From a virus, in IMG/VR virus record IMGVR_UViG_3300044712_000810, positions 1-64,000 of that record: DNA of 64,000 bases; one strand, written 5' to 3'. How positions within the stretch are numbered: position 1 is the first letter of the stretch; the number at the start of each line of letters is the position of its first letter. Made by a program: the position numbers and the translations under genes. Below are positions 1,295 through 49,681 of the stretch, piece after piece. The notes under the pieces are model-generated. The model was not told the DNA's origin. It made no database searches and saw only the letters and a program-made list of their open reading frames with translations.

Positions 1295-4200
1295 ATGAAT
1301 TATTCAACAATAACACCAAATAGTGTTATACGAAATCAATTTAGAATAGACCAACCAGCAGTATTGGTCATGTTATCTGATAATGCTACTGCGCCAAATG
1401 TACTTAATAACATTCACACATCAGGACTATTACTTACAAACTGTGATGGACTAGTTATACCAAATAAAATGTTTACTATTGGACGTAAGAAATTCAATGG
1501 TAAAATACACTTACTTGATGTTAAGAAATCAATGCTACAACAGAGTACTGATTTGGCATCAATGAAAAAATTAAAGATATTAGCATCAGTACCAACAGAA
1601 AAGGTAAAAGGTAAAGTCGGTGAAGTTGAAAGTAATAAGTATTATATTTATGATGCTACTGTTATAAGTCAAGCATTTGTCGGATTACAAGAATCGTTTC
1701 CGGCGAAGATCTTATTGCATGTTCTTTTAAGTGAATTAACCAATATTTATAATGAAATTAAAAGAAGTAAACCATCATTACAAGTCGATCCTATTATATT
1801 CATCTCAAATCCACAAAGTCCACTCGCACAAATGTTAAGAAATATCAGAATGATGATTCAAGAAAAAGAATTATCTGAAATGACATTTTTTGATAATTAC
1901 TTTCTTGTTAATGTTGGAAATCAAACTACAATACCAATTTTCTTTAAAGATAAATCAGTAACACATATTAATACAAATATGTTAAATAAAGTATTTGACA
2001 TACTTGATGCACTTCCATCACCAATGGAAAATCAATCTCCAGTACAAGCAGATACTGAAAATCTTTCAATAAAAGATAAACCAGAACCTTCAACGTTCTT
2101 ACAAGGTATTGTAAAAGATATCGGACAAAAGAATTTAATTAAAACCGATATTATCGACGATGAACTCAAAGTTGAAATCGATAAACGTGAATTATCAAAA
2201 ATCTTTAAGAAATATAAAATCGAAAACCCAGATATTATTGCAAACGTTAAATCGGCTATTGATGCGTATGTACAAAATAAAGGTGAAAAACTCACACAAG
2301 ATGAAGCCGAAAGAACAGTTCTTAAAGCTATTAACTTTACAATTCACGGAACCGATGAAGTATCTGAGGAATATCTAGCCAGACCAAGATTACTATTTAA
2401 CAAACTCAATGAAATCAAAACATATCAAGTTCCACTTAAATTCCCAAACATGGCATCTTACACAGTGAATCCAGCAGATGTCATCGATATCAAACATACA
2501 TGTGGACAAAACAGACAACAATTTGAGTTTACTGAAACTATTCATGAAAACATTGCAAAACTATTTAGTTCTATCGAAAACGTATCATCAAATCCAATTA
2601 AAGTTGTTAAAATTGAACATGATGTGCGCGATAACGATCTTGATAGATATATTTTATACAAGATTACACTTCAAAATATGACTGGTGAAAACAAACAACC
2701 ATATTCGGTCGAACTCAAAGTTCCAGCACCAGTTAATGAACGTTACTTTAAGCTTCGCGGCAACCACTATATTATTTCAACACAACAATACTTCAGACCA
2801 ATTACTAAAACCGATAAAACTGAAGTTCGTATTCTTACAAACTATGCCATGATTCGTATCGGCATCAAGAATATGAAGTTTAACCCAAGTGATGTTAACG
2901 ATATTATTAACTATATGAAAATTAAGTATCCACGCTTAATGTCTGAAGTACAAGATAACTTTGTATCTTTTAAAGATAATTCAGCAGTATTCTTTGATGG
3001 TAACTTAGTTTATAAACAAGGTCCATTTGAAGTGTTTATTGATGAAGAAACAAACAGACTAAAAGATACAAATGGAAATGAAATCAAGAATGGTCGTTTC
3101 GAATATATTTATGAAATATTAGCACAAAAGATTTTAATGGCCGATCCTAACGATAAATTAACCAAAACAAAACTTAGTATCCCATACTTCCAGATTCACA
3201 TCATGGGTATTAAACTTCCATTAATATTATATCTTTGGTCACAAAAAGGTCTTCTTGGTGCTCTTAATGATTTTGGTGTTGATTATAAAATCGAAGACGA
3301 ACCAAGTGGCGGAGTATCTGTTGCCACTGCAAATAATAAGTTTTTAAATATCTCACCAAAGAATATTCGTGAAAAACTATTAGTCAATGGTATTATCGCA
3401 GCAAGAATTAAAGAAGTTATAAATGATTTAACAGATAAAGAAGCAATTTATAACCACTTAGCACAAAACTATGGTTCACGCGCAATTATCAACTTTAATC
3501 TTGCTACTGAAAACCTTATTGACCCAATTACAAAAGAATTGTTAGAATTCGAAAACTTGCCAACTAACGTTCCTGCGCTTATTACTGGTCGTGCACTCGA
3601 TATGCTTCTTAACCAAAAACAAGATAACCTTGCAGATCTTAAAATCTATCGTGCAAGAATGAGTGAGCTTATTCTTAATGCTACTTATAAACTGATTAAA
3701 CAGGCACATAACCACTACACAACTAAAATATCATACGGTGACGCCAAAGCTAAAATCGAATTCTTCGATCCTGATTATATTATTACTAACATTTTAAGTG
3801 ATATCGGTGTTCTAACAAACACGGAACCTGTTAACCCAATTGACGAAATCATGCTTGCGTCGAAAGTTATTAAAACTGGTAAAGGTGGCGTTCCTAACAG
3901 ACGTGCATTCAAACCAGAGCAAAGAAATATACATGAATCAATGTATGGAATCATTGGCGCAAACAGTACATCTGAAACAACTAACGTTGGTCTTGTTGGT
4001 CACCATACACTTACGCCAGTTATTACAAACAAGTTCGGTTCATATGGTGCAAAAGATATTACCAGTCTTTCTGGTTGGAATATCCTTGCTCTTGATGAAT
4101 TACTTACACCATTTCAAAACTCTGTTGACGCGGGCCGTATGGTAATGGCAAGAACACACGCATCACAAATCACACCAGTAAACAACGCTGAAGCACCGTT

Positions 4201-5923
4201 AGTAGGTACTGGAGCACAATTTATCGTTGGACAATTAGCTAGCCCAAGATTCGTACATAGAGCTAAACGTGATGGTGTTGTTACTGCAATTGAAAAAGAT
4301 CGTACAATGACTGTAAAATATTCTGACGGTTCAATTGAAAGTTTAGATATACTTCCAAGATTAAGTAGAACTCGTCGTGGTTCATTCATTAGTCTTGAAA
4401 TGATTCCAGTCGAAGTCGGCCAAAAGTTCTTAAAGAATCAAATCATTGCTAGAAGTAAGAGTTTTAGTGAAGATGGTATTTATTGTTCCGGTAAAAACGT
4501 CAGTATTGCTGTAATGAACTATATGGGTTATTCGCATGAAGACGCATATGTAGTTTCACAAGACTGGGCAAAAGAAACAACAACTGATGTTATTAAAGAA
4601 GTTAGTGTTATTATTCCACCAGAGACTAAAATTCTTAATATGGTTAGAGAAAATAAATCAGTAAGCAACGGTGAAACACTTGTAGAATTCGTATATGAAG
4701 AAGCACTTGAAAACTATCTTGAAATGAATAACATTGCTCTTAGCGAAGATGATGAAGAAATTTCAAACTACGCTAAAGGTGATCATACAATTAAAACCAT
4801 TGCACCTCAAGGTGAAATTGTTGATATTAAAATATTCATAAACAATAAAAATAGTGTTGATAAATCATTACTCGGATTCCATGATGACATGACAAAACGC
4901 GATAGAAAAACACTTGCAACACTTACTAAAAATAGATCAGAAAACAAAGATATTATTAGTGCATCAGATAACATGCGTTTGAGTTATTTCACCATTGGAA
5001 ATCATAAACATAAAGGCGCAGACTTCCTAGGTGCCAAGATTGTTTATTATGTAAAACAAACAAAGATCATGAGAGAAGGTGATAAAATCGCCAATAGATA
5101 TGGAGCTAAAGGTGTTATTAGTAAAATCTTAACACAAGCACCAAAAGGTGAATTTACACCACGTATTGACTGTTTCATTAGTCCTGCCGGTGTATTCTCA
5201 AGAAAGAACGTATCATTTATTAAAGAACTTTATATCGGTAAAATCTTTAAACACTTAAATGATAAAATTATCGAAATGGCTAATGATCAAACAGTTAAAA
5301 CAGAAACTATTATTAAAACGATTGTTGAAACATATAAAATAATTAGTACACAAAAAATGGTTGATGCGATTAAAAGTAATATAAATACATATAATAGTTT
5401 AAATACATTAAGAAATAATATTAAAAATGGTAAGTTTAAGTTATATTACTTAATTGAACCATTTGACAATATTGGATTTGGAAAGATTAAATTATGTGCG
5501 GAGTTTTTAAATATCCCATTAGATGAAAAAGTTTACATTCCAGAATTAGGGACATGGACTGACGTACCAGTTCCAGTTGGAGTAAGTTATTATCAAGCAC
5601 TCGAACACTATTCTGACGTATATAGTAACGTTCGTGGAAGTGAAAAATATCAAAGTCTAACAAGACAACCAACACACGGTAAAAGCCGTCAAGGTGGTCA
5701 AGCATTAGGTAACCTCGACGTTCAAGCATTACTTTCACTTGAAGCACAAAACATACTTGAAGAATTGCTTGGCCCAAGATCTGACCAACATATTCCAAAA
5801 CGTGCTATTTACAACAATATCATCGAATATGGTGAAACTCCAAATATGCCTCGCACTGGTTATGGTGGAACAAAGGACTTGTTCGATATTTATATGGTCG
5901 GACTTGGACTTGAAATGAAATAA
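1295..5923 (+). CDS. DNA-directed RNA polymerase beta subunit (phage multisubunit RNAP)
   Basis: A 1542-residue protein carrying beta-subunit landmarks in the correct order: FKLRGNHYIISTQ (about 482, like the fork-loop region FxIxGxExVIxxQ), RNIHESMYGIIG (about 877, counterpart of RDVHPTHYGRICPIE), PLVGTGAQF (about 968), MGYSHEDAYVVS (about 1078, counterpart of GYNFEDSI), GDKIANRYGAKGVISKI (about 1262, active-site lysines) and HGKSRQGGQALGNLDVQAL (about 1458, the C-terminal clamp contact). Many jumbo phages split beta over two genes; here it is one polypeptide. The first 300 or so residues have no recognisable beta motif. Strong ribosome binding site (AGGAGAATATA). No beta-prime gene is in the window. 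Confidence 0.9.
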   Translation: MNYSTITPNSVIRNQFRIDQPAVLVMLSDNATAPNVLNNIHTSGLLLTNCDGLVIPNKMFTIGRKKFNGKIHLLDVKKSMLQQSTDLASMKKLKILASVPTEKVKGKVGEVESNKYYIYDATVISQAFVGLQESFPAKILLHVLLSELTNIYNEIKRSKPSLQVDPIIFISNPQSPLAQMLRNIRMMIQEKELSEMTFFDNYFLVNVGNQTTIPIFFKDKSVTHINTNMLNKVFDILDALPSPMENQSPVQADTENLSIKDKPEPSTFLQGIVKDIGQKNLIKTDIIDDELKVEIDKRELSKIFKKYKIENPDIIANVKSAIDAYVQNKGEKLTQDEAERTVLKAINFTIHGTDEVSEEYLARPRLLFNKLNEIKTYQVPLKFPNMASYTVNPADVIDIKHTCGQNRQQFEFTETIHENIAKLFSSIENVSSNPIKVVKIEHDVRDNDLDRYILYKITLQNMTGENKQPYSVELKVPAPVNERYFKLRGNHYIISTQQYFRPITKTDKTEVRILTNYAMIRIGIKNMKFNPSDVNDIINYMKIKYPRLMSEVQDNFVSFKDNSAVFFDGNLVYKQGPFEVFIDEETNRLKDTNGNEIKNGRFEYIYEILAQKILMADPNDKLTKTKLSIPYFQIHIMGIKLPLILYLWSQKGLLGALNDFGVDYKIEDEPSGGVSVATANNKFLNISPKNIREKLLVNGIIAARIKEVINDLTDKEAIYNHLAQNYGSRAIINFNLATENLIDPITKELLEFENLPTNVPALITGRALDMLLNQKQDNLADLKIYRARMSELILNATYKLIKQAHNHYTTKISYGDAKAKIEFFDPDYIITNILSDIGVLTNTEPVNPIDEIMLASKVIKTGKGGVPNRRAFKPEQRNIHESMYGIIGANSTSETTNVGLVGHHTLTPVITNKFGSYGAKDITSLSGWNILALDELLTPFQNSVDAGRMVMARTHASQITPVNNAEAPLVGTGAQFIVGQLASPRFVHRAKRDGVVTAIEKDRTMTVKYSDGSIESLDILPRLSRTRRGSFISLEMIPVEVGQKFLKNQIIARSKSFSEDGIYCSGKNVSIAVMNYMGYSHEDAYVVSQDWAKETTTDVIKEVSVIIPPETKILNMVRENKSVSNGETLVEFVYEEALENYLEMNNIALSEDDEEISNYAKGDHTIKTIAPQGEIVDIKIFINNKNSVDKSLLGFHDDMTKRDRKTLATLTKNRSENKDIISASDNMRLSYFTIGNHKHKGADFLGAKIVYYVKQTKIMREGDKIANRYGAKGVISKILTQAPKGEFTPRIDCFISPAGVFSRKNVSFIKELYIGKIFKHLNDKIIEMANDQTVKTETIIKTIVETYKIISTQKMVDAIKSNINTYNSLNTLRNNIKNGKFKLYYLIEPFDNIGFGKIKLCAEFLNIPLDEKVYIPELGTWTDVPVPVGVSYYQALEHYSDVYSNVRGSEKYQSLTRQPTHGKSRQGGQALGNLDVQALLSLEAQNILEELLGPRSDQHIPKRAIYNNIIEYGETPNMPRTGYGGTKDLFDIYMVGLGLEMK

Positions 5924-33072: not shown

Positions 33073-33963
33073 ATGCTTAATGATGGATTTTATAAAAAAG
33101 TTGAAGATCCAAAATATTTAAAAAACATACTTTACGGCGATACAGACTCTTTGTTCCTTTGTATCCCAACTAAAACATCAGCAAAACAAATGTCAATTGA
33201 CGAAATTATTAAAATTTCAAAAGATACTGGTAAGAATATAAATGATTTAATTCAACAGTATATGGTTAAATATTTGTTTCCAAAAGCAAATATTGATCCT
33301 AATTTTAATAAGACTCAATTTAAAAACGAAATGATTATGTCGAGTATCATGTTCCTCGACGTTAAAAAACAGTATGCATATAAACTACTAGTAAAAGAAG
33401 GTGTTGTACTAACAGAACCTGAAACCAAATATACCGGTATTCAGATTGTTAGAACCAATACTGCAAAAATTACTAGTAAACTTTTAAGAGAAATGATTGA
33501 GGATGTTATTCTTAATCCACAAATTACAAGAAAACAACGTATTCCAAAACTTATTGAACTCGTTGATGCAAAACACAAAGTATTTAATGATTTTGCAGAC
33601 GCATGTGATTTTACCGAAATAGGTATTCCATGTAAATGGCAAAAACAAGATCAACATATTATGGGAATGAAATTATATAATTTCATAATGGAGAAAGAGA
33701 CATTTAACTTAGGATCTTCCGGAAGATTCATCTATTGCAAATTTCATGATACTAGAACATTAAATCTTTCCGGTATAGATACTGATAAATTAAACGGTAT
33801 AGTCGTACCATATTCATATGATAAAGATAAACTTCGTGATGCAATGGCTAAATATAAAATCATCATCGATAGACAAACACAATGGGACACACTGTACTCC
33901 AAGACTTGTCAACGCTTAACTGAACTAGTAAAACTGATCGATAAGAGATCAGAAGGGAAGTAA
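33073..33963 (+). CDS. Family B DNA polymerase, C-terminal fragment (motif C and thumb)
   Basis: A 296-residue protein that begins just before motif C: ILYGDTDSLFL at about 19-29 carries the two catalytic aspartates. Downstream, MFLDVKKQYAYKL matches the KKRY-type motif that grips template DNA, and the rest resembles a thumb domain. The exonuclease, motif A and motif B are absent; they are in the gene at 47.6 kb, which stops just before motif C. It has its own ribosome binding site (GAGGATATTCT) and intact reading frame, so it is a separate functional subunit rather than a degraded copy. Confidence 0.88.
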   Translation: MLNDGFYKKVEDPKYLKNILYGDTDSLFLCIPTKTSAKQMSIDEIIKISKDTGKNINDLIQQYMVKYLFPKANIDPNFNKTQFKNEMIMSSIMFLDVKKQYAYKLLVKEGVVLTEPETKYTGIQIVRTNTAKITSKLLREMIEDVILNPQITRKQRIPKLIELVDAKHKVFNDFADACDFTEIGIPCKWQKQDQHIMGMKLYNFIMEKETFNLGSSGRFIYCKFHDTRTLNLSGIDTDKLNGIVVPYSYDKDKLRDAMAKYKIIIDRQTQWDTLYSKTCQRLTELVKLIDKRSEGK

Positions 33964-37222: not shown

Positions 37223-37237
37223 CATATAGAAATAATA
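37223..37237 (+). promoter_or_regulatory. Putative promoter, type B box (rsr unit)
   Basis: CATATAGAAATAATA preceded by TTCTCTTTTTT; the only promoter-like box seen before the rsr and RNA-element region. Confidence 0.6.
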
Positions 37238-37359: not shown

Positions 37360-38982
37360 ATGAAGAAAGTCGTAAAATCAGTGGAAAAGGCAATTTACAA
37401 AAACCCAACAGCGACAGCAGACACTGTCAACAAACACGGCACAAAAGCTTGGACTCAGTCCGATAGCACTCGTGTCGATCAGATCATGATGACAGGTACA
37501 TTTGGAAACTCGTTCTACGCCTCCGGCGACGAACTTGTGAAAGATGCTATCGAAGTCATCGAACGCGTGGCAAAGAAAGATCCTGCGCTGCTTGCATCAA
37601 CCATCGTGAAGGGTCGTAATGACGGCTTCATCAGAACTGCACCGTTAATCGGTCTAACAGTTCTATCGATGCACGCTCCAGCTGAATTTCGTAAAATCTT
37701 CAACGATACCGTGAAAACCGGTAACGACCTTGAAGACTTCATGAAGTTCGCATCAACCATGCGTAAAGGATTCGGAACTGCAATCAAGAAAGCTATGTGG
37801 GGATGGCTGTTTGAAAAGGTAACACCTTTCTACGCAACCAAATACACAAAGCAAATCGCGAACGCAATTTCCGTTTCGCATCCAAGAACACTCGATCCTA
37901 TCTTCGATTACATCATGCAGCACACTGCTGGTAAATCGAGAAACTATGCGGCTGCTCTCAAAAAGTATCCTGCCCTTCGTGGTATGGAAGAAGCAAAGGT
38001 AGCAGTTCAAAACAAAGACTGGAAGAAAGCCCAGAAACTAATCGACGAGCACAGACTCGATCCGACTACTTTTCTTGGCATGGGAACAATGACAAAAGAT
38101 GTGTGGAAATCACTTTCTGCACAATTTGGTGTCATGGCATATCTCAAATACCTTAACAAGATCGTCCGCGAGGATGCTCTTGATCCTAAGGTAATGAGAG
38201 AAAAGCTAAAACCTGAAGTCCTGAACAAGGCAAAGGTTTTCCCATTCCGTCTTTACATCGCAAGAGAAAACATCCAGAACGCAACAGTTCGTGATCATCT
38301 CGCCCAAGTCCTCGACGACTACGGCAAGATTTACAACTGGGAATCTTGGGGTGACAAGCAATTTGTCATCGCACCAGACGTTTCTGGATCAATGGTTCAA
38401 GCTGTACGTGGATCTAAACTAACTCCAGCCACAGTTGCTGGTATGTTCAGTGGATTCCTGTACAAATTCATTCCAGGAAGTATTCTTCTTCCTTGGAGCA
38501 CTGAAGTTCGTCCGAACCTCGTGCGTCCTCGTCAGGACTCTGTTCTGACACATATCGAAAGTATTGCCCGTGCAAACGGCGGTGGAACAGCAATGGCTTC
38601 ACCGATCGATCACATGATCCGCAATAAGATCAAGTGTGACTACTTCATCGGAATCACCGATTCTGAAGAATGGTCTGCACCTGTGACCAGATATGCTTGG
38701 GGCGGACGTAGATCCGATGAAAGACAGTGGATTGATGCTTGGACTGAATACAGAAATAAAGTCAACAAGAATGCGAAAGCAATTCTTCTTCGTGTGGATG
38801 GATACCCAACACAGCCATTCGATGACAAAACAGCTAAAGAAAATGGAATTTACCAGATCTTCGGTTGGTCCGACAACGTACTCAAATACGTTGATTACGT
38901 GATCAATTCTGAAAAATATGTGGTAAAAGAAAAAGAAAAGAAAGTTGAAAAACTTGATAAATATGTAACTATCGAAAGATAG
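37360..38982 (+). CDS. rsr: Ro60 orthologue (Rsr): TROVE plus vWA domain RNA-binding protein
   Basis: A 540-residue Ro60/Rsr-type protein. The N-terminal TROVE module (about 20-320) has the family-like GNSFYASGDELVKDAIEVIE and helical HEAT-like repeats. The C-terminal von Willebrand A domain has a complete MIDAS site: D340-x-S342-x-S344 (APDVSGSM), T410 (GGGTAM) and D434 (GITDSEE). Ro60 proteins form rings that bind misfolded RNAs and Y RNAs; bacterial Rsr works with PNPase and is often encoded beside Y RNA and RtcB genes. Here an array of structured RNA elements, some tRNA-like, follows at once and rtcB lies 3.5 kb downstream. Codon use is fairly G+C-rich. Confidence 0.88.
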   Translation: MKKVVKSVEKAIYKNPTATADTVNKHGTKAWTQSDSTRVDQIMMTGTFGNSFYASGDELVKDAIEVIERVAKKDPALLASTIVKGRNDGFIRTAPLIGLTVLSMHAPAEFRKIFNDTVKTGNDLEDFMKFASTMRKGFGTAIKKAMWGWLFEKVTPFYATKYTKQIANAISVSHPRTLDPIFDYIMQHTAGKSRNYAAALKKYPALRGMEEAKVAVQNKDWKKAQKLIDEHRLDPTTFLGMGTMTKDVWKSLSAQFGVMAYLKYLNKIVREDALDPKVMREKLKPEVLNKAKVFPFRLYIARENIQNATVRDHLAQVLDDYGKIYNWESWGDKQFVIAPDVSGSMVQAVRGSKLTPATVAGMFSGFLYKFIPGSILLPWSTEVRPNLVRPRQDSVLTHIESIARANGGGTAMASPIDHMIRNKIKCDYFIGITDSEEWSAPVTRYAWGGRRSDERQWIDAWTEYRNKVNKNAKAILLRVDGYPTQPFDDKTAKENGIYQIFGWSDNVLKYVDYVINSEKYVVKEKEKKVEKLDKYVTIER

Positions 38983-39032: not shown

Positions 39033-39099
39033 GCAAGGTATCAGTAATAAGTTTCAACGCACTGTTAAAGCCAAAAAGGCTTATTACATTAGTCCTTGC
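39033..39099 (+). ncRNA. Y-like RNA element E1
   Basis: First of ten related elements. Outer stem GCAAGG/CCTTGC, internal loop TATCA opposite ATTAGT, inner stem GTAATAAG/CTTATTAC, conserved TTCAACG after the inner 5' strand, short variable insert. Flanked by TT upstream and GCTT downstream. Described as Y-like because it follows the Ro60 gene; no match to a known RNA family is claimed. Confidence 0.7.
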
Positions 39100-39115
39100 G
39101 CTTCTTTCAAATTTT

Positions 39116-39338
39116 GGAAGGTATCAGAAAAACGTTCAACGCACATGAAATGCACCCGAGTTAACACTCGTGTAGGTTCGAGTCCTACCCTTGGCACCAA
39201 TCATGGGGACCATCTAGAGAGAAAGTCGAAAGACCGCTTCAAAAGATAGCAATTAAATTTGCAGGTACCCTCCAAATTTTGCCGAGGTGGCGGAATTGGT
39301 AGACGCAGGTAAAAACAATGTTTTTCATCAGTCCTTCC
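39116..39338 (+). ncRNA. Y-like RNA element E2 with permuted tRNA-like insert
   Basis: Outer stem GGAAGG/CCTTCC, internal loop TATCA opposite ATCAGT, inner stem GAAAAAC (39127)/GTTTTTC (39320), TTCAACG at 39135. The insert is a circularly permuted tRNA-like sequence of 170 bases including an 81-base spacer, annotated separately. AAAAACAAT separates its end from the inner stem, exactly as in E5. Confidence 0.75.
39141..39310 (+). tRNA. Circularly permuted tRNA-Leu-like gene (3' half first)
   Basis: The 3' half (39141-39199) has a long variable arm (CGAG/CTCG stem), T-arm GTAGG-TTCGAGT-CCTAC, acceptor strand CCTTGGC, discriminator A and encoded CCA. The 5' half (39281-39310) follows 81 bases later and starts GCCGAGG, pairing with CCTTGGC, then a D-arm (GCGG...GACGC) and AGGT. 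Joining AGGT to GCACATG restores an anticodon-like stem GGTGCA/TGCACC with loop CATGAAA. Acceptor and long variable arm look like tRNA-Leu, but no Leu anticodon is present and position 33 would be A, so it may be a tRNA mimic. Confidence 0.72.
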
Positions 39339-39347
39339 GACTTATTT

Positions 39348-39425
39348 TGTGGAGTAGAGTAGTCTGGTCTAACTCGTAGGTCTCATAAGCCTAGTACACA
39401 GGTTCAAATCCTGTCTCCGCAACCA
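39348..39425 (+). tRNA. tRNA with CAU anticodon (Met, or Ile2)
   Basis: 78-nt cloverleaf: acceptor TGTGGAG/CTCCGCA, anticodon stem TAGGT/GCCTA with loop CTCATAA, T-arm ACAGG-TTCAAAT-CCTGT, discriminator A, encoded CCA. The CAU anticodon could be elongator Met or, if modified to lysidine, Ile. Lies 9 bases after element E2. Confidence 0.88.
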
Positions 39426-39430
39426 CTTTT

Positions 39431-39522
39431 GAAAGGTAATCCGACAAGATTCAACGTTACCATTATACGTCTATCGGGCAACTCGACGCCCGATCGAAAC
39501 CGTCTTGTCATCTAGTCCTTTC
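39431..39522 (+). ncRNA. Y-like RNA element E3
   Basis: Outer stem GAAAGG/CCTTTC, internal loop TAATCC opposite ATCTAGT, inner stem GACAAGA/TCTTGTC, conserved TTCAACG. The insert carries its own 7-bp hairpin ATCGGGC/GCCCGAT. No tRNA similarity. Confidence 0.7.
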
Positions 39523-39530
39523 ACCCTTTT

Positions 39531-39591
39531 GCAAGGTAAATGAATCTGGATTCAACGGAAAACTGAAAACACCAGATTTAACAGTCCTTGC
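39531..39591 (+). ncRNA. Y-like RNA element E4
   Basis: Shortest copy (61 bases). Outer stem GCAAGG/CCTTGC, inner stem AATCTGG/CCAGATT, conserved TTCAACG and AGTCC, insert only about 16 bases. Confidence 0.7.
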
Positions 39592-39614
39592 ACTTAAAAT
39601 TTCTCACAACTTTT

Positions 39615-39755
39615 GAGAGGTAACCCCGAGTAGGTTCAACGCTATATGGAAGCCGGTGTCATCGGTTCGAATCCGATCTCCTCCATCACAAATCTTTTGG
39701 GGGAGTAGCTCAGTCTGGTAGAGCACGAAAAACAATCTGCTCAATTAGTCCTCTC
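39615..39755 (+). ncRNA. Y-like RNA element E5 with permuted tRNA-like insert
   Basis: Outer stem GAGAGG/CCTCTC, internal loop TAACCCC opposite AATTAGT, inner stem GAGTAG (39628)/CTGCTC (39737), TTCAACG at 39635. The insert is a permuted tRNA-like domain; AAAAACAAT (39728) precedes the inner 3' strand as in E2. Confidence 0.75.
39641..39727 (+). tRNA. Circularly permuted tRNA-like gene (3' half first), identity unclear
   Basis: The 3' half (39641-39685) has T-arm ATCGG-TTCGAAT-CCGAT, acceptor strand CTCCTCC and discriminator A, then TCA instead of CCA. After 13 bases the 5' half (39699-39727) starts GGGGGAG, pairing with CTCCTCC (one G-U), then TA and D-arm GCTC...GAGC. Joining CACG to GCTATATGG gives a perfect anticodon-like stem CGGCT/AGCCG with 7-base loop ATATGGA. 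The triplet in anticodon position (ATG) would be unusual, so amino-acid identity is left open; a tRNA mimic is possible. Confidence 0.7.
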
Positions 39756-39771
39756 AACTTTTAAAAATTTT

Positions 39772-39846
39772 GGTCTAGTAGCTTAATGGTAGAGCACCTG
39801 CCTGTCGAGCAGCAAGATGTCGGTTCAAATCCGATCTAGATCGCCA
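39772..39846 (+). tRNA. tRNA-Asp (GUC)
   Basis: 75-nt cloverleaf: acceptor GGTCTAG/CTAGATC, D-arm GCTT...GAGC, anticodon loop CTGTCGA (GTC), T-arm loop TTCAAAT, discriminator G typical of Asp, encoded CCA. One C-C mismatch at the top of the anticodon stem. Confidence 0.9.
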
Positions 39847-39852
39847 TCTTTT

Positions 39853-39969
39853 GCAAGGTAACCCCGTGTGGTTTCAACGGAAACTAACAAGTCATCAAAA
39901 CTGGTTACAGTAGGATTCGAAGCCTACAACACCTTCGGGTGAAACGAGCCACACAAACCATGTCCTTGC
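39853..39969 (+). ncRNA. Y-like RNA element E6
   Basis: Outer stem GCAAGG/CCTTGC, inner stem GTGTGG/CCACAC, TTCAACG, 3' core ends ATGTCC rather than AGTCC. The insert has a T-arm-like hairpin GTAGG/CCTAC with ATTCGAAG between and a CACC-TTCG-GGTG hairpin, but no matching D-arm or acceptor strands, so it is not called a tRNA. Confidence 0.65.
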
Positions 39970-39981
39970 ACTTAAAATTTT

Positions 39982-40067
39982 GGGGATGTTACACAAGCGG
40001 CAACGTGACCTGGCTGTAACCCAGGTGCCTTCGGGCTTCAGAGGTTCGAGTCCTCTCTTCCCCACCA
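39982..40067 (+). tRNA. tRNA-Tyr (GUA)
   Basis: 86-nt cloverleaf with long variable arm (TGCCTTCGGGCTTC): acceptor GGGGATG/CTTCCCC with one T-T mismatch, anticodon loop CTGTAAC in stem CCTGG/CCAGG, T-arm AGAGG-TTCGAGT-CCTCT, discriminator A, encoded CCA. Confidence 0.92.
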
Positions 40068-40085
40068 TTATAATTTGGAGATATT

Positions 40086-40481
40086 ATGTTTGATTTCAAT
40101 AAATGCGACAATCCAAAAAAGCAAGGTAATATTGGAATTGGTATCGCAATCGCATGGTTCGTAAAAAATGGTTGTACCGTATCTATTCCATTAACAGATT
40201 GTCAAGAATATGATCTTGTCATCGATGATATTAATGGAAAATTATACAAAGTTCAAGTTAAAACTACAACATTTAAAGAATTTAATACTTATAAAATTAA
40301 CTTAAAAACCTGTGGTGGCAATCAAAGTTTTAATACAATTAAAAAATTCGATAAAACGAAAGTAGATTTATTATTCATTGTTACCTGTGAAGGTGATATG
40401 TATTTAATTCCAACAAATAAAATAACACAAACAAATTGTTTAAAACTTGGTGAAAAATATCAAGACTGTAAAGTTACTTAA
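40086..40481 (+). CDS. PD-(D/E)XK homing endonuclease, I-Ssp6803I-like
   Basis: A 131-residue protein with the I-Ssp6803I-type core: GNIGIGIAIAWFVKNGCTVSIPL (helix then strand), YDLVIDD (catalytic D about 44) and VQVKTTT (Q-x-K, about 57-61). I-Ssp6803I is a tetrameric homing endonuclease of a tRNA-fMet group I intron, so a relative inside a tRNA and structured-RNA array is telling. Ribosome binding site TTTGGAGATATT. It may have helped spread or rearrange the array. An A+T-rich insert between elements E6/tRNA-Tyr and E7. Confidence 0.75.
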   Translation: MFDFNKCDNPKKQGNIGIGIAIAWFVKNGCTVSIPLTDCQEYDLVIDDINGKLYKVQVKTTTFKEFNTYKINLKTCGGNQSFNTIKKFDKTKVDLLFIVTCEGDMYLIPTNKITQTNCLKLGEKYQDCKVT

Positions 40482-40496
40482 AATTTCCACTTATTT

Positions 40497-40575
40497 GAAG
40501 GGTAAACCGACAAGTTTCAACGCTCATAACGTATTCGCGCCATCTTGCGAATCTAACTTGTCACGCAGTCCCTTC
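40497..40575 (+). ncRNA. Y-like RNA element E7
   Basis: Outer stem GAAGGG/CCCTTC, inner stem GACAAGT/ACTTGTC, conserved TTCAACG and AGTCC. The insert includes a short TTCGCG.../...CGCGAA-like hairpin but no tRNA parts. Confidence 0.7.
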
Positions 40576-40584
40576 AACTTTTTT

Positions 40585-40653
40585 GTGAGGTATCAGTAAT
40601 AAGTTTCAACGCCCCTTGCACGAGCCTAAAACGCTTATTACACAAGTCCTCAC
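40585..40653 (+). ncRNA. Y-like RNA element E8
   Basis: Outer stem GTGAGG/CCTCAC; inner stem GTAATAAG/CTTATTAC and loop TATCA are identical to E1 although outer stem and insert differ. TTCAACG and AGTCC conserved. Confidence 0.7.
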
Positions 40654-40672
40654 ATTTAAATTTCCAAATTTT

Positions 40673-40804
40673 GGAAGGTATCAAGAAACATCCAACGTTA
40701 ACTCCAAACCGGGGGTTATGGTTCAAGTCCATACATTTTGCCAAATAAGGCAGTGTAATGTAATGTAGCATACCGGTTCAACGCAGTTTCTTAAAAGTCC
40801 TTCC
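40673..40804 (+). ncRNA. Y-like RNA element E9 with degenerate permuted tRNA-like insert
   Basis: Outer stem GGAAGG/CCTTCC, inner stem AGAAAC/GTTTCT, 5' core motif ATCCAACG (variant of TTCAACG) and a TTCAACG copy on the 3' side. The insert has a T-arm TATGG-TTCAAGT-CCATA followed by a D-arm-like GTGTAATG...TAGCAT and ACCGG, again 3' half first, with CCGG complementary to AACCGG. Acceptor strands do not pair well, so the tRNA-like part is probably decayed. Confidence 0.6.
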
Positions 40805-40813
40805 ACATTTTTT

Positions 40814-40879
40814 GCGAGGTATTCTTCCAGGATTCAACGATCCTCTAAATCGAAAACGACCCTGGATATCAGTCCTCGC
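40814..40879 (+). ncRNA. Y-like RNA element E10
   Basis: Outer stem GCGAGG/CCTCGC, inner stem CCAGG/CCTGG, conserved TTCAACG and AGTCC. Last copy, 21 bases before the small zinc-protein gene at 40901. Confidence 0.7.
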
Positions 40880-41079: not shown

Positions 41080-41100
41080 GGGTCTTCGGACCCAATTTTT
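41080..41100 (+). terminator. Rho-independent terminator
   Basis: GGGTC-TTCG-GACCC followed by AATTTTTATTTTT. Confidence 0.85.
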
Positions 41101-41115
41101 ATTTTTACCTAAAGT

Positions 41116-41130
41116 CATATAGAAATAGTA
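41116..41130 (+). promoter_or_regulatory. Putative promoter, type B box
   Basis: CATATAGAAATAGTA preceded by ACCTAAAGT; first of two boxes before the gene at 41283. Confidence 0.6.
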
Positions 41131-42511: not shown

Positions 42512-42525
42512 ACTTGGAGTCAACC

Positions 42526-43629
42526 ATGTCGTGTCTGGATAAATGCGCATTTCTTATTCCATATACTCAAATAGAGGCAGGTGCACAAACACAATTGTGC
42601 AACTATTTAAAAGAACCATTTTGCCTCCGCGCAGCTGTAATGCCAGACATCCATACCGGATATGCGTTACCAGTTGGTGCGGTTGTATTGCTCGAAGGAG
42701 TAATATCACCAGCAGCAGTTGGTGTTGATATAGGTTGCGGAATGTGTTGTATTCGTACAGATGTTCCGATCAAACATATCAAAGGAAAAGAAGAAAAACT
42801 ATTTAAACAAATATATTCTACTATTCCAGTTGGATTTGGTAGTCATGCAAAAAAAAGAGACTATCCTGATTTCAAATCAGCAATACTGGATAAAAAACTG
42901 GATGCAGCAATAAATTTAAAATTAAAAGAACAACTTGGAACTCTCGGTGGTGGGAATCACTTTATTGAAATTGGTGAAACACGAGAAGGAAATATAGGAA
43001 TTACTATTCATAGTGGATCACGTAATGCTGGAAAGCAAATATGTGATCATTACTGTGCATTAGCTAAAAAAATTCATACTGAATTAAAAGGTGACTTTCT
43101 ATTCTTCGATCGTGATGAAGGAAAGGCATACTTTCAAGATATGAACTTTATGTTATCATATGCATTAGAAAATCGTTTAAATATGATGGTTGACATTCTT
43201 GATATACTTGGGTTGGATCAAAATCTACTCAAGGAAATCATTAATGAGAATCATAATCATGCCGAAGATCTAGATGGAAAGATTCTGCATCGTAAAGGTG
43301 CAACACCAGCAGCAAAAGACCAATTGGGTGTTATCCCAGGTAATATGCGCGACGGTGTATATATAACTAAAGGTCTTGGCAACGACAAATATCTGTCAAG
43401 TGCAAGTCATGGAGCCGGTCGTAAAGGTTCTAGAACTTGGGCAAAACAAAAAGATACAGTCGAAACATTTGCAAAACTAATGAATGGTATTGTCGCGAAA
43501 GTTGACAAACATACATTGGATGAAGCACCTTGGGCATATAAAAAGATCGAGGATGTAATTAAAGCACAAGAAGGAATTGTGGTTGATATTATCGATCACA
43601 TTAGACCAATCATTAACATCAAAGGATAG
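42526..43629 (+). CDS. rtcB: RNA-splicing ligase RtcB
   Basis: A 367-residue RtcB: joins RNA 3'-phosphate or 2',3'-cyclic phosphate ends to 5'-OH ends using GTP and manganese. Signatures are MPDIHTGYALPVGAV, VGVDIGCGMC (metal-binding), GTLGGGNHFIE, HSGSRNAGK, HRKGATPA and SASHGAGRKGSR, the last carrying the histidine that is guanylylated. Start ATG at 42526 with TTGGAGTCAACC. It lies 1.6 kb after the permuted tRNA-like elements and near rsr; this gene grouping parallels bacterial rsr-Y RNA-rtcBA operons. No RtcA or archease is seen. Confidence 0.94.
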   Translation: MSCLDKCAFLIPYTQIEAGAQTQLCNYLKEPFCLRAAVMPDIHTGYALPVGAVVLLEGVISPAAVGVDIGCGMCCIRTDVPIKHIKGKEEKLFKQIYSTIPVGFGSHAKKRDYPDFKSAILDKKLDAAINLKLKEQLGTLGGGNHFIEIGETREGNIGITIHSGSRNAGKQICDHYCALAKKIHTELKGDFLFFDRDEGKAYFQDMNFMLSYALENRLNMMVDILDILGLDQNLLKEIINENHNHAEDLDGKILHRKGATPAAKDQLGVIPGNMRDGVYITKGLGNDKYLSSASHGAGRKGSRTWAKQKDTVETFAKLMNGIVAKVDKHTLDEAPWAYKKIEDVIKAQEGIVVDIIDHIRPIINIKG

Positions 43630-47543: not shown

Positions 47544-47578
47544 TTATAGTATAAAATCCTTGGGAATTGGGGGTAAGA

Positions 47579-49681
47579 GTGCAACAAATCCAATGTGACG
47601 ATTTAATTGACATGATTAAGTCCGACAAAATTTCTCCCTATCAATTTTATTCTACGGATATTGATTATCCACAGTATTACAGTGTTGAATATTTTTTAAA
47701 TCATCCTCATGATACTATTGAAAAAAATCAAAAGCTTAAAATCCTGTTTTTAGACATCGAAGTTTATATGCAAGGATCTACGAAATTCCCAAAACCAGAA
47801 GAAGGGGAATTTCCAGTAAGCGCAATTACAACATATTTAAATACAAAAAACAAGTTTACATCTTATTTTTTATTATTGAATAAAAACATACAAAAATTTC
47901 CAGTAGAAGATCTTGAAAAACAAAAACAAGATTATTTAAACACACTGTTACAAAATAAATATATAACAGACAAAGATACACTGGAAATTAAAATTTTTAC
48001 GAATGAAACAGAACTGTTAAAAACATTTTGGGAAGATGTAAAAACAGATGATCCAGCATGTTTAACAGGATGGAACAGCGATCAATTCGACTTACCGTAT
48101 CTATATTACAGAACGGTTAATGTATTAAATGGTGATGAAAAACGTGCTCATAAGTTAATGTCTAAATTTGGACAAGTTAAAGTTAGAGCATATGGTGGAA
48201 AAATAGTAATAGATTTTCCAGAATTTATTAATATGGATTTATATTACTTATATAAACCACGAGCAGAAGGTGGACTTGCACAAGGTAAAACTATGGCAAG
48301 TTATTCACTAGATTTCGTGTCAGAACAAATTTTAAAATTAAAGAAATTAGAATATAAAAATGAAGGTATGAGTCTGGATATGTTTTATGAAGCAGATCCA
48401 GTTGGATACTTATTATATAACATAATGGACTGTTGCCTAGTTAATTTACTTAACAATAAACTAGGACACCCAGACCGATATAACATGTTACGTCGTCTTA
48501 TGAAGACACCATTAGGTATTGCACTAAGAGGTCCTTCCGCATTATTTGATACATTCGTTTTACATGAATTGACAAGAAATGGTCAGGGCCCAAGATTTGG
48601 AATACTAGACGAAACAAGTGTAGAAATTCCAGAACATGAGATTAGACAAATACCTACACAAAAAACAAGTAAGAAAATTAAATGGGGAATTACTGAAATT
48701 TCCCAAGAAACTTATAGAGCGATAACTTGTAGATATCCTGGCGCATATGTTAAGGATTCTCCAGGTTTAATTTATGACTTGGATGATGGAATTCTAATTG
48801 ACTTAGATGCAACATCACTGTATCCAAGTATGATCTGTCAATATAATATCAGTTTCGATACATTCCATGGAAGAGTAATTGATCCTATTGTAACTAAATC
48901 ATTAGTAACAATTGATAATATTATTAAATCAAATGGACCAATTGCAGATAATATCTATATTGGTCTTTGTGACATGGCATCAAAATATGTATATAGAGAA
49001 GAATTTACAAATAAAAACGATTATACACAACAAGTGTATTATATCACATGTTATCTTATTAAGAAAATAAAAGAACATGGAAAAGAACTTGATAAGTTAT
49101 TTCATCCAAAAGACTATAAAGATTATATCGTACTTAAACGTTACTTGTTACCACTTATTGACTTACTTGAAGACTTATCATCAAACTCTGAAGAATATAA
49201 TACATTCGCCCATGACTATTTATTAATGGACAAAACTGATCCAGAAGTAAAAAGTTTATTAATAGTTGAAAATATAACGAAACCAACAATATGTGTTAAT
49301 CGTATTTTGGTCGAAGATTTTCCAAATTATCTAAAACAACAAAAACTAGTATTTACTCTAACCGGATGTTTATTCAATGAACACAATGACAAAATAAGTA
49401 TCTTTTATGAATTCCTTACAAACATGAAAAATATGCGCGATCAATATAAAAGAGATCGCGACAGTAATGAAGAAGGAAGCGAAAAGTATCGTTATTTTGA
49501 CATGATGCAGAATGCCACCAAAGTAACAATGAACTCAACATATGGTCTATATGGCATGAGTTTATTCAGATATAGTAATAAATGGTTGGCGAAAACTATT
49601 ACAATTTCCGGAAGATTAACACTAAAACTAGCACAAAGATTATCTGATGTATATATAAGTTCTCTCAAGGAAAATAATTAA
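47579..49681 (+). CDS. Family B DNA polymerase, N-terminal fragment (exonuclease, motifs A and B)
   Basis: About 700 residues from a GTG at 47579 with GGGGGT upstream (TTG at 47567 is the alternative). Proofreading exonuclease: FLDIEVY (Exo I, about 58), GWNSDQFD (Exo II, about 164) and YNIMD (Exo III, about 281). Polymerase motif A is IDLDATSLYPS (about 406) and motif B KVTMNSTYG (about 647). It stops (LKENN) where motif C should follow; motif C and thumb are in the gene at 33.1 kb. The last residues show no intein motifs. The two proteins together (about 996 aa) match a full polymerase. Confidence 0.92.
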   Translation: MQQIQCDDLIDMIKSDKISPYQFYSTDIDYPQYYSVEYFLNHPHDTIEKNQKLKILFLDIEVYMQGSTKFPKPEEGEFPVSAITTYLNTKNKFTSYFLLLNKNIQKFPVEDLEKQKQDYLNTLLQNKYITDKDTLEIKIFTNETELLKTFWEDVKTDDPACLTGWNSDQFDLPYLYYRTVNVLNGDEKRAHKLMSKFGQVKVRAYGGKIVIDFPEFINMDLYYLYKPRAEGGLAQGKTMASYSLDFVSEQILKLKKLEYKNEGMSLDMFYEADPVGYLLYNIMDCCLVNLLNNKLGHPDRYNMLRRLMKTPLGIALRGPSALFDTFVLHELTRNGQGPRFGILDETSVEIPEHEIRQIPTQKTSKKIKWGITEISQETYRAITCRYPGAYVKDSPGLIYDLDDGILIDLDATSLYPSMICQYNISFDTFHGRVIDPIVTKSLVTIDNIIKSNGPIADNIYIGLCDMASKYVYREEFTNKNDYTQQVYYITCYLIKKIKEHGKELDKLFHPKDYKDYIVLKRYLLPLIDLLEDLSSNSEEYNTFAHDYLLMDKTDPEVKSLLIVENITKPTICVNRILVEDFPNYLKQQKLVFTLTGCLFNEHNDKISIFYEFLTNMKNMRDQYKRDRDSNEEGSEKYRYFDMMQNATKVTMNSTYGLYGMSLFRYSNKWLAKTITISGRLTLKLAQRLSDVYISSLKENN

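Follow-up and report, generated by a model that had tools for sequence, protein, structure and literature searches.

Ten Y RNA-like elements with tRNA-like modules and candidate anticodon loops beside a phage Ro60 gene

Bacterial Y RNAs have an established role in tethering Ro60 to the exonuclease PNPase, as in the Deinococcus RYPER (PMC8394870, PMC4726728). In the bacterial family YrlA (RF02553), a transfer RNA (tRNA)-like domain of D, T and acceptor arms stands upon a basal stem (PMC8394870), and the Y RNAs of vertebrates and nematodes have a short loop motif, UUAUC (PMC4726728). Among phages, Listeria phage CKA15 produces abundant transcripts less than 2 kb from an Rsr-like gene, regarded as putative Y RNAs (PMC12282133); Ro60 genes occur in many phages. 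Here, an array of ten related RNA elements was analyzed downstream of a Ro60/Rsr gene, at 39033-40879 on the + strand of a 64,000-nucleotide window comprising positions 1 to 64,000 of the 314,837-base virus record IMGVR_UViG_3300044712_000810. The ten elements are, with high probability, phage Y RNAs with a divergent core, assigned by context and structure, and they appear to display segments resembling tRNA anticodon loops.

The elements conform to a descriptor of six paired bases ending in GG, followed by GGTA...T[TC]CAACG...GTCC. Exactly ten matches to it were found, with none elsewhere in the window on either strand, no additional copy in a pattern search of the whole virus record, and no match in 1,000 dinucleotide shuffles of the array region, in exact agreement with the ten stem-paired copies listed in a preliminary description of this DNA. 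Despite changes in its letters, the outer stem forms 6/6 pairs in every element; its cognate arms pair in 10/10 cases vs 19/90 non-cognate combinations, while the arms of the inner stem (6-9 pairs) do so in 10/10 vs 4/90. Over 11 pairs and ten sequences, all 110 cells are paired (100%, compared with 72% after shuffling), and 8 of the 11 stem pairs have changes on both sides. The covariation score, measured from copy to copy among ten paralogues of one genome and not from genome to genome, is 0.794, compared with 0.194 for shuffled sequences and at most 0.11 for slid structures, bearing out the covariation earlier described for both stems. Free-energy folding recovers both stems in all ten elements (z-scores of -2.2 to -4.8), with an asymmetric internal loop between them. 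GGTA, TTCAACG (TCCAACG in element 9) and GTCC are nearly constant, as had been reported, and the inserts do vary in length, measuring 14-177 nt (roughly 16 to 175 bases as first given).

The gene upstream of the array (37360..38982, + strand; 540 aa) was correctly recognized at the outset as Ro60: it contains vWA_Ro60 (Pfam, 3e-13) and TROVE (2e-6) domains, and it matches RO60 in the PDB (4e-16), with likeness to the human, Xenopus and Deinococcus Ro60 structures over most of its length. Residue H174 of the phage protein, which is nearly invariant in ten phages, aligns with vertebrate H187 (this last number from a hand count along the alignment), and an H187S mutant of mouse Ro60 does not bind Y3 RNA (PMC11277228).

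The preliminary description had named Y RNA, YrlA and self-cleaving ribozymes for comparison with Rfam, and only the second of these gave a match: element 5 (39615..39755) scored 36.2 bits against YrlA (E 9.4e-6), below the gathering score of 69, whereas the vertebrate Y RNA model (RF00019) and the Rfam ribozyme families had no match even at E 5. Elements from other phages obtain YrlA scores similar to that of element 5. In elements 2 (39116..39338) and 5, the tRNA-like module is permuted, running from T arm to acceptor 3′ strand, acceptor 5′ strand and D arm with 7/7 acceptor pairs; element 2 also has a class II variable arm and CCA, and element 5 a G3:U70 pair. Element 9 (40673..40804) has a similar permuted layout, with a T arm, an irregular acceptor and D-like parts. 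The locus has a Ro60 neighbor, two stems with an internal loop, a tRNA-like domain (elements 2 and 5) and an H187 equivalent. Shared with YrlA are the Ro60 neighbor, the paired ends with an internal loop, and the permuted T/acceptor/D domain (less clearly in element 9), whereas the core, the internal loops, the sub-threshold Rfam scores and the presence of ten copies set the array apart; furthermore, the YrlA consensus has no anticodon-like arm, and in a Microbacterium phage element cmscan treats this arm as inserted sequence. Vertebrate Y RNAs, bound by Ro60, likewise have two stems, an asymmetric internal loop and a short conserved loop motif, although the array elements have no Rfam Y RNA match; UUAUC may correspond to TTATC in actinophages, TTACTTC in other phages and TTCAACG in the array. 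Permuted, two-piece transfer-messenger RNA (tmRNA) also has a tRNA-like domain, the two halves of which are swapped in the gene, but the array has no tag reading frame, and the match of element 5 is sub-threshold.

Similar unannotated elements, usually several, were identified in most of the other Ro60 phages examined and in several alphaproteobacteria. Beside Ro60, these share an anatomy in which an internal loop separates the outer from the inner stem and a short core motif precedes the module. The core itself differs, reading TTACTTC in Rhizobium, Xanthomonas, Brevundimonas, Caulobacter, Microcystis, crAss-like and Thermus phages; in actinophages it is TTATC and directly follows the inner stem (the Microbacterium phage being among the Ro60-linked cases). 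Bacterial relatives of the phage Ro60 have YrlA clusters downstream, some above the Rfam threshold, with the core TACATC. It is on account of this anatomy beside Ro60 in phages, and of the YrlA clusters near bacterial Ro60 relatives, that the ten elements are classed as Y RNAs. With the identity of Ro60 and the YrlA match, it makes a Y RNA-like family with interchangeable modules, as originally put forward, the best reading. Since multi-copy elements lie near other Ro60 genes, the array as such is not unique, and the earlier suggestion that it is possibly new does not hold as to kind; what is unusual in this phage is the ten copies and the TTCAACG core.

By reading of the sequences, phage arrays elsewhere hold two to about eight copies, not every one of which passes a strict two-stem test, the Xanthomonas copies in particular failing it. 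Scanning blindly for two stems of strict geometry succeeded for the window only; the looser scans employed core motifs and had random-position rates of 1-12%, for which reason isolated weak matches, such as those in Mx1, Forza and Daubenski, were left out of the Y RNA count. The TTCAACG DNA pattern occurred in 47 contigs of the viral_contigs collection, none of them a true element upon pairing and inspection. Public phage genomes leave such arrays largely unannotated or labeled as tRNAs; for example, segments of phage Y RNAs appear in GenBank under the names tRNA-Thr, tRNA-Gln and tRNA-Ser (L011 2816-2883, L014 3143-3210 and L012 3781-3855, respectively). In alphaproteobacterial genomes (L080, L082, L091 and L102), three to five or so YrlA stand in a row downstream of Ro60. 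A recently solved TROVE protein (PDB 9kop, 9l5y) is apparently that of Thermus phage phiLo (L010), judging by its sequence.

In Listeria phage P100, three tandem stem elements of the TAACAGCAATTACT type lie on the minus strand (L075 32100-32450), upstream of gp165, itself a match to the Ro60 profile, and elements of this type may be among the abundant unexplained transcripts of CKA15. The Listeria elements differ from the array in their core sequence, and a clear anticodon loop was not seen there. Further upstream of the P100 stem elements is a ROOL-like RNA.

The preliminary description is supported as to the family and overlooked a segment directly 3′ of TTCAACG that resembles an anticodon loop (CU-NNN-AA). 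CT...AA occurs within 6 positions of the core in 6 of the 10 elements, compared with 0.75 in shuffles. This pattern was spotted post hoc and was therefore tested against anticodon loops defined elsewhere. Loops of the phage's own tRNAs are found, as exact seven-base matches within 7 positions of TTCAACG, in 5 of 10 elements (0.30 when shuffled), and with up to one mismatch in 9 of 10 (2.81 when shuffled); none of 5,000 shuffles reached either count. The five exact cases are CTGTTAA (Asn; 39062-39068) in the short element 1 (39033..39099), CTCATAA (Met; 40523-40529, closed as ACG[CTCATAA]CGT) in element 7 (40497..40575), CTTGCAC (Ala; 40615-40621) in the short element 8 (40585..40653), CTCCAAA (Trp; 40702-40708) in element 9, and CTCTAAA (CUA suppressor; 40843-40849) in the short element 10 (40814..40879). 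Element 2 has CATGAAA (39144-39150), one letter off Ser UGA; the short element 4 (39531..39591) has the Phe-like CTGAAAA (39563-39569); and element 6 (39853..39969), comprising a T-arm-like part and a second hairpin, has CTAACAA (39884-39890), one off Val UAC. Element 3 (39431..39522) carries a hairpin module.

An external set of 80 anticodon loops, taken from 138 tRNAs that lie outside the arrays, gave exact matches in 4 of 10 window elements vs 0.53 (P 0.001) and in 13 of 50 elements of other phages vs 2.00 (0/2,000 shuffles), including 9 of 31 vs 1.49 for those without a nearby T arm; reversed loops, as a control, gave 0 and 3 in the window and the other phages, respectively. The signal in bacterial elements was weaker than in phages (7/38 vs 1.13, P 0.0005), and the looser CT...AA pattern by itself was not significant there. 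In other phages, the mean anticodon stem-loop score has z = 7.0, and the loop is often carried by a well-paired stem that draws on the core, the window stems being weaker; examples are UUCGA[CUUGUAA]UCGAG in a Xanthomonas phage element, UUCGA[CUGUUAA]UCGAG in a Caulobacter phage element, and AAUAAU[CUUCUAA]AUUAU in crAss001, to which the related cr106_1 answers with CUUUUAA. No report of anticodon-like loops in Y RNAs was found in a search of open literature outside Chen 2014, Sim and Wolin 2018, and Wang 2018.

Several observations, in addition to the post hoc origin of the pattern, weigh against Y RNAs that display anticodon loops. The Rfam gathering score is reached by 0/10 elements, and the TTCAACG core is unlike the YrlA consensus. 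Stems beneath the window loops are short (0-4 pairs), U33 is missing in elements 2, 3 and 5, the AAC of element 6 is an unusual anticodon, and random array positions, tRNAs and repeated spacers included, average 0.81 exact loops per ten. Elements elsewhere were found with hand-tuned motifs, and related phages are partly non-independent. In addition, the loop matches could be unselected leftovers of descent from tRNA genes; since the loop flanks of elements 1, 7, 8 and 10 are, by eye, unlike those of the matching tRNAs, there is a mild argument against such leftovers. Taken with these points, the enrichment makes it probable that the display of anticodon loops is real.

Beyond the observed structure, covariation, linkage, modules and loop enrichment, we infer Ro60 binding, transcript processing and a decoy role. 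The paired ends, namely the outer stem, asymmetric internal loop, inner stem and TTCAACG core, would form a putative handle for the adjacent phage Ro60, and the loop of each element would be an interchangeable tRNA-imitating module, ranging from a bare anticodon-like loop up to a permuted T/acceptor/D body. Ro60 and the array probably share one transcript, which would be cut at AU-rich spacers. The most likely use of the resulting Ro60-bound ribonucleoproteins would be as decoys, keeping host anticodon nucleases engaged with varied anticodon loops and acting beside the phage's own tRNAs (31 above the Rfam threshold in the record, most clustered at 275-306 kb) and an RtcB RNA ligase (42514..43629, + strand; Pfam RtcB 3e-80) encoded in the next transcription unit. 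Because the phage has RtcB and many tRNAs, anticodon nucleases are the most natural target, although this role is tentative. In Salmonella, the YrlA tRNA-like domain was suggested as a possible decoy or competitive inhibitor, untested there (PMC7790460). Overall, phage Y RNAs with interchangeable, tRNA-imitating modules, possibly serving as decoys, are the explanation we favor, with some confidence. That phage, and some bacterial, Y RNAs generally constitute a modular decoy set, with one Ro60 handle and many different anticodons forming a broad phage shield against host anticodon nucleases, is a doubtful extension, in which elements 2 and 5 might in addition be cleaved in the acceptor loop, yielding two-piece RNAs with a tRNA-like acceptor end. 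If phage Y RNAs do display specific anticodon loops, the system would be a testable counter-defense against tRNA-cutting immunity (e.g., PrrC, PARIS, and Cas13a), and bacterial Y RNAs would gain a possible role besides PNPase tethering.

The strongest alternative is that these are ordinary Y RNAs, which tether Ro60 to host PNPase and gate the Ro60 ring, with tRNA-like parts as docking surfaces and loops as remnants of the tRNA genes that founded the modules. Besides the RYPER precedent, no PNPase gene was found in the phage genome, such that a host partner would be required, and CCA follows the acceptor strand in modules of several phages, a mark of tRNA ancestry (6/12 candidates, of which two or three are apparently spurious). 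This account leaves unexplained the short modules that have a seven-base loop without a tRNA body, as well as the differing loop flanks noted above, and is considered possible but rather unlikely.

Far less probable is a reading as circularly permuted tRNA genes, made into working tRNAs by cutting and joining, with RtcB nearby. Both acceptor strands are indeed reversed in elements 2 and 5, with CCA in element 2. TTT followed by G, moreover, stands 5′ of all ten elements, of the ordinary tRNA-Asp (GTC, 39772..39846) and tRNA-Tyr (GTA, 39982..40067), and of the internal acceptor 5′ strands of elements 2 (at 39281) and 5 (at 39699), and hence hints at a shared processing signal at TTT|G. However, the anticodon-stem 5′ strand (27-31) is absent or has only 2-3 pairs in elements 2 and 5; element 9 keeps CCGG/CCGG; seven elements lack a complete tRNA body; and the phage already has 31 ordinary tRNAs. 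A small self-cleaving ribozyme or processing element repeated among tRNAs, earlier named as the main alternative, would suit the compact pairing, the fixed core letters and the position between processed RNAs, but is now without support and extremely improbable: the Rfam ribozyme families gave nothing at E 5, the core is interrupted by inserts of 14-177 nt, and the same anatomy recurs near Ro60 elsewhere. A group I intron reading was considered and set aside. DNA-level mobile or recombination repeats, which would account for the tandem arrangement, are scarcely credible for units whose pairing survives changes on both sides, whose flanks and modules vary, and which occupy a single strand only.

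Upstream of Ro60 is the promoter-like motif CATATAGAAATA (37223..37234, + strand), which occurs 79 times in the genome with up to one mismatch (reversed control, 14). It recurs at 41116, each of the two following a terminator, the latter's being a terminator-like hairpin with a T tract (41080..41093, +) at the end of the predicted unit. As no such motif lies between 37223 and 41116 in the + direction, Ro60, the ten elements, three tRNAs and two small genes are probably one transcript. The third tRNA is an ordinary tRNA-Met (CAT, 39348..39425, +). Genome-wide, CATATAGAAATA (e.g., at 37223, 41116, and 45252) usually stands behind a terminator T tract. Relatives of the phage Ro60 were not found in viral_contigs, an alignment of ten sequences proved too divergent to be of use, and relatives of the neighboring RtcB had no Ro60 by profile.

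Inside the array, a PD-(D/E)XK nuclease-like gene (40086..40481, +; Pfam PDDEXK_5 6e-18) looks similar to a gene within the tRNA cluster (L002 1367-1790), both being possibly elements of the homing type. A tRNA with a CUA anticodon, of the amber suppressor type (Pyl according to ARAGORN), is located at about record position 290,748 (L077 15748-15822). The idea drawn from this tRNA, that TAG is read as sense, was unsupported: TAG is an ordinary stop in several window genes, and most TAG stops checked soon precede another stop. An RpoB-like subunit is apparently phage-encoded at 1295-5923 (by eye), and DNA polymerase B looks split between 47567-49681 and 33073-33963 of the window, with the exonuclease and DATSLYPSMI in one gene and YGDTDSL in another gene 14 kb upstream.

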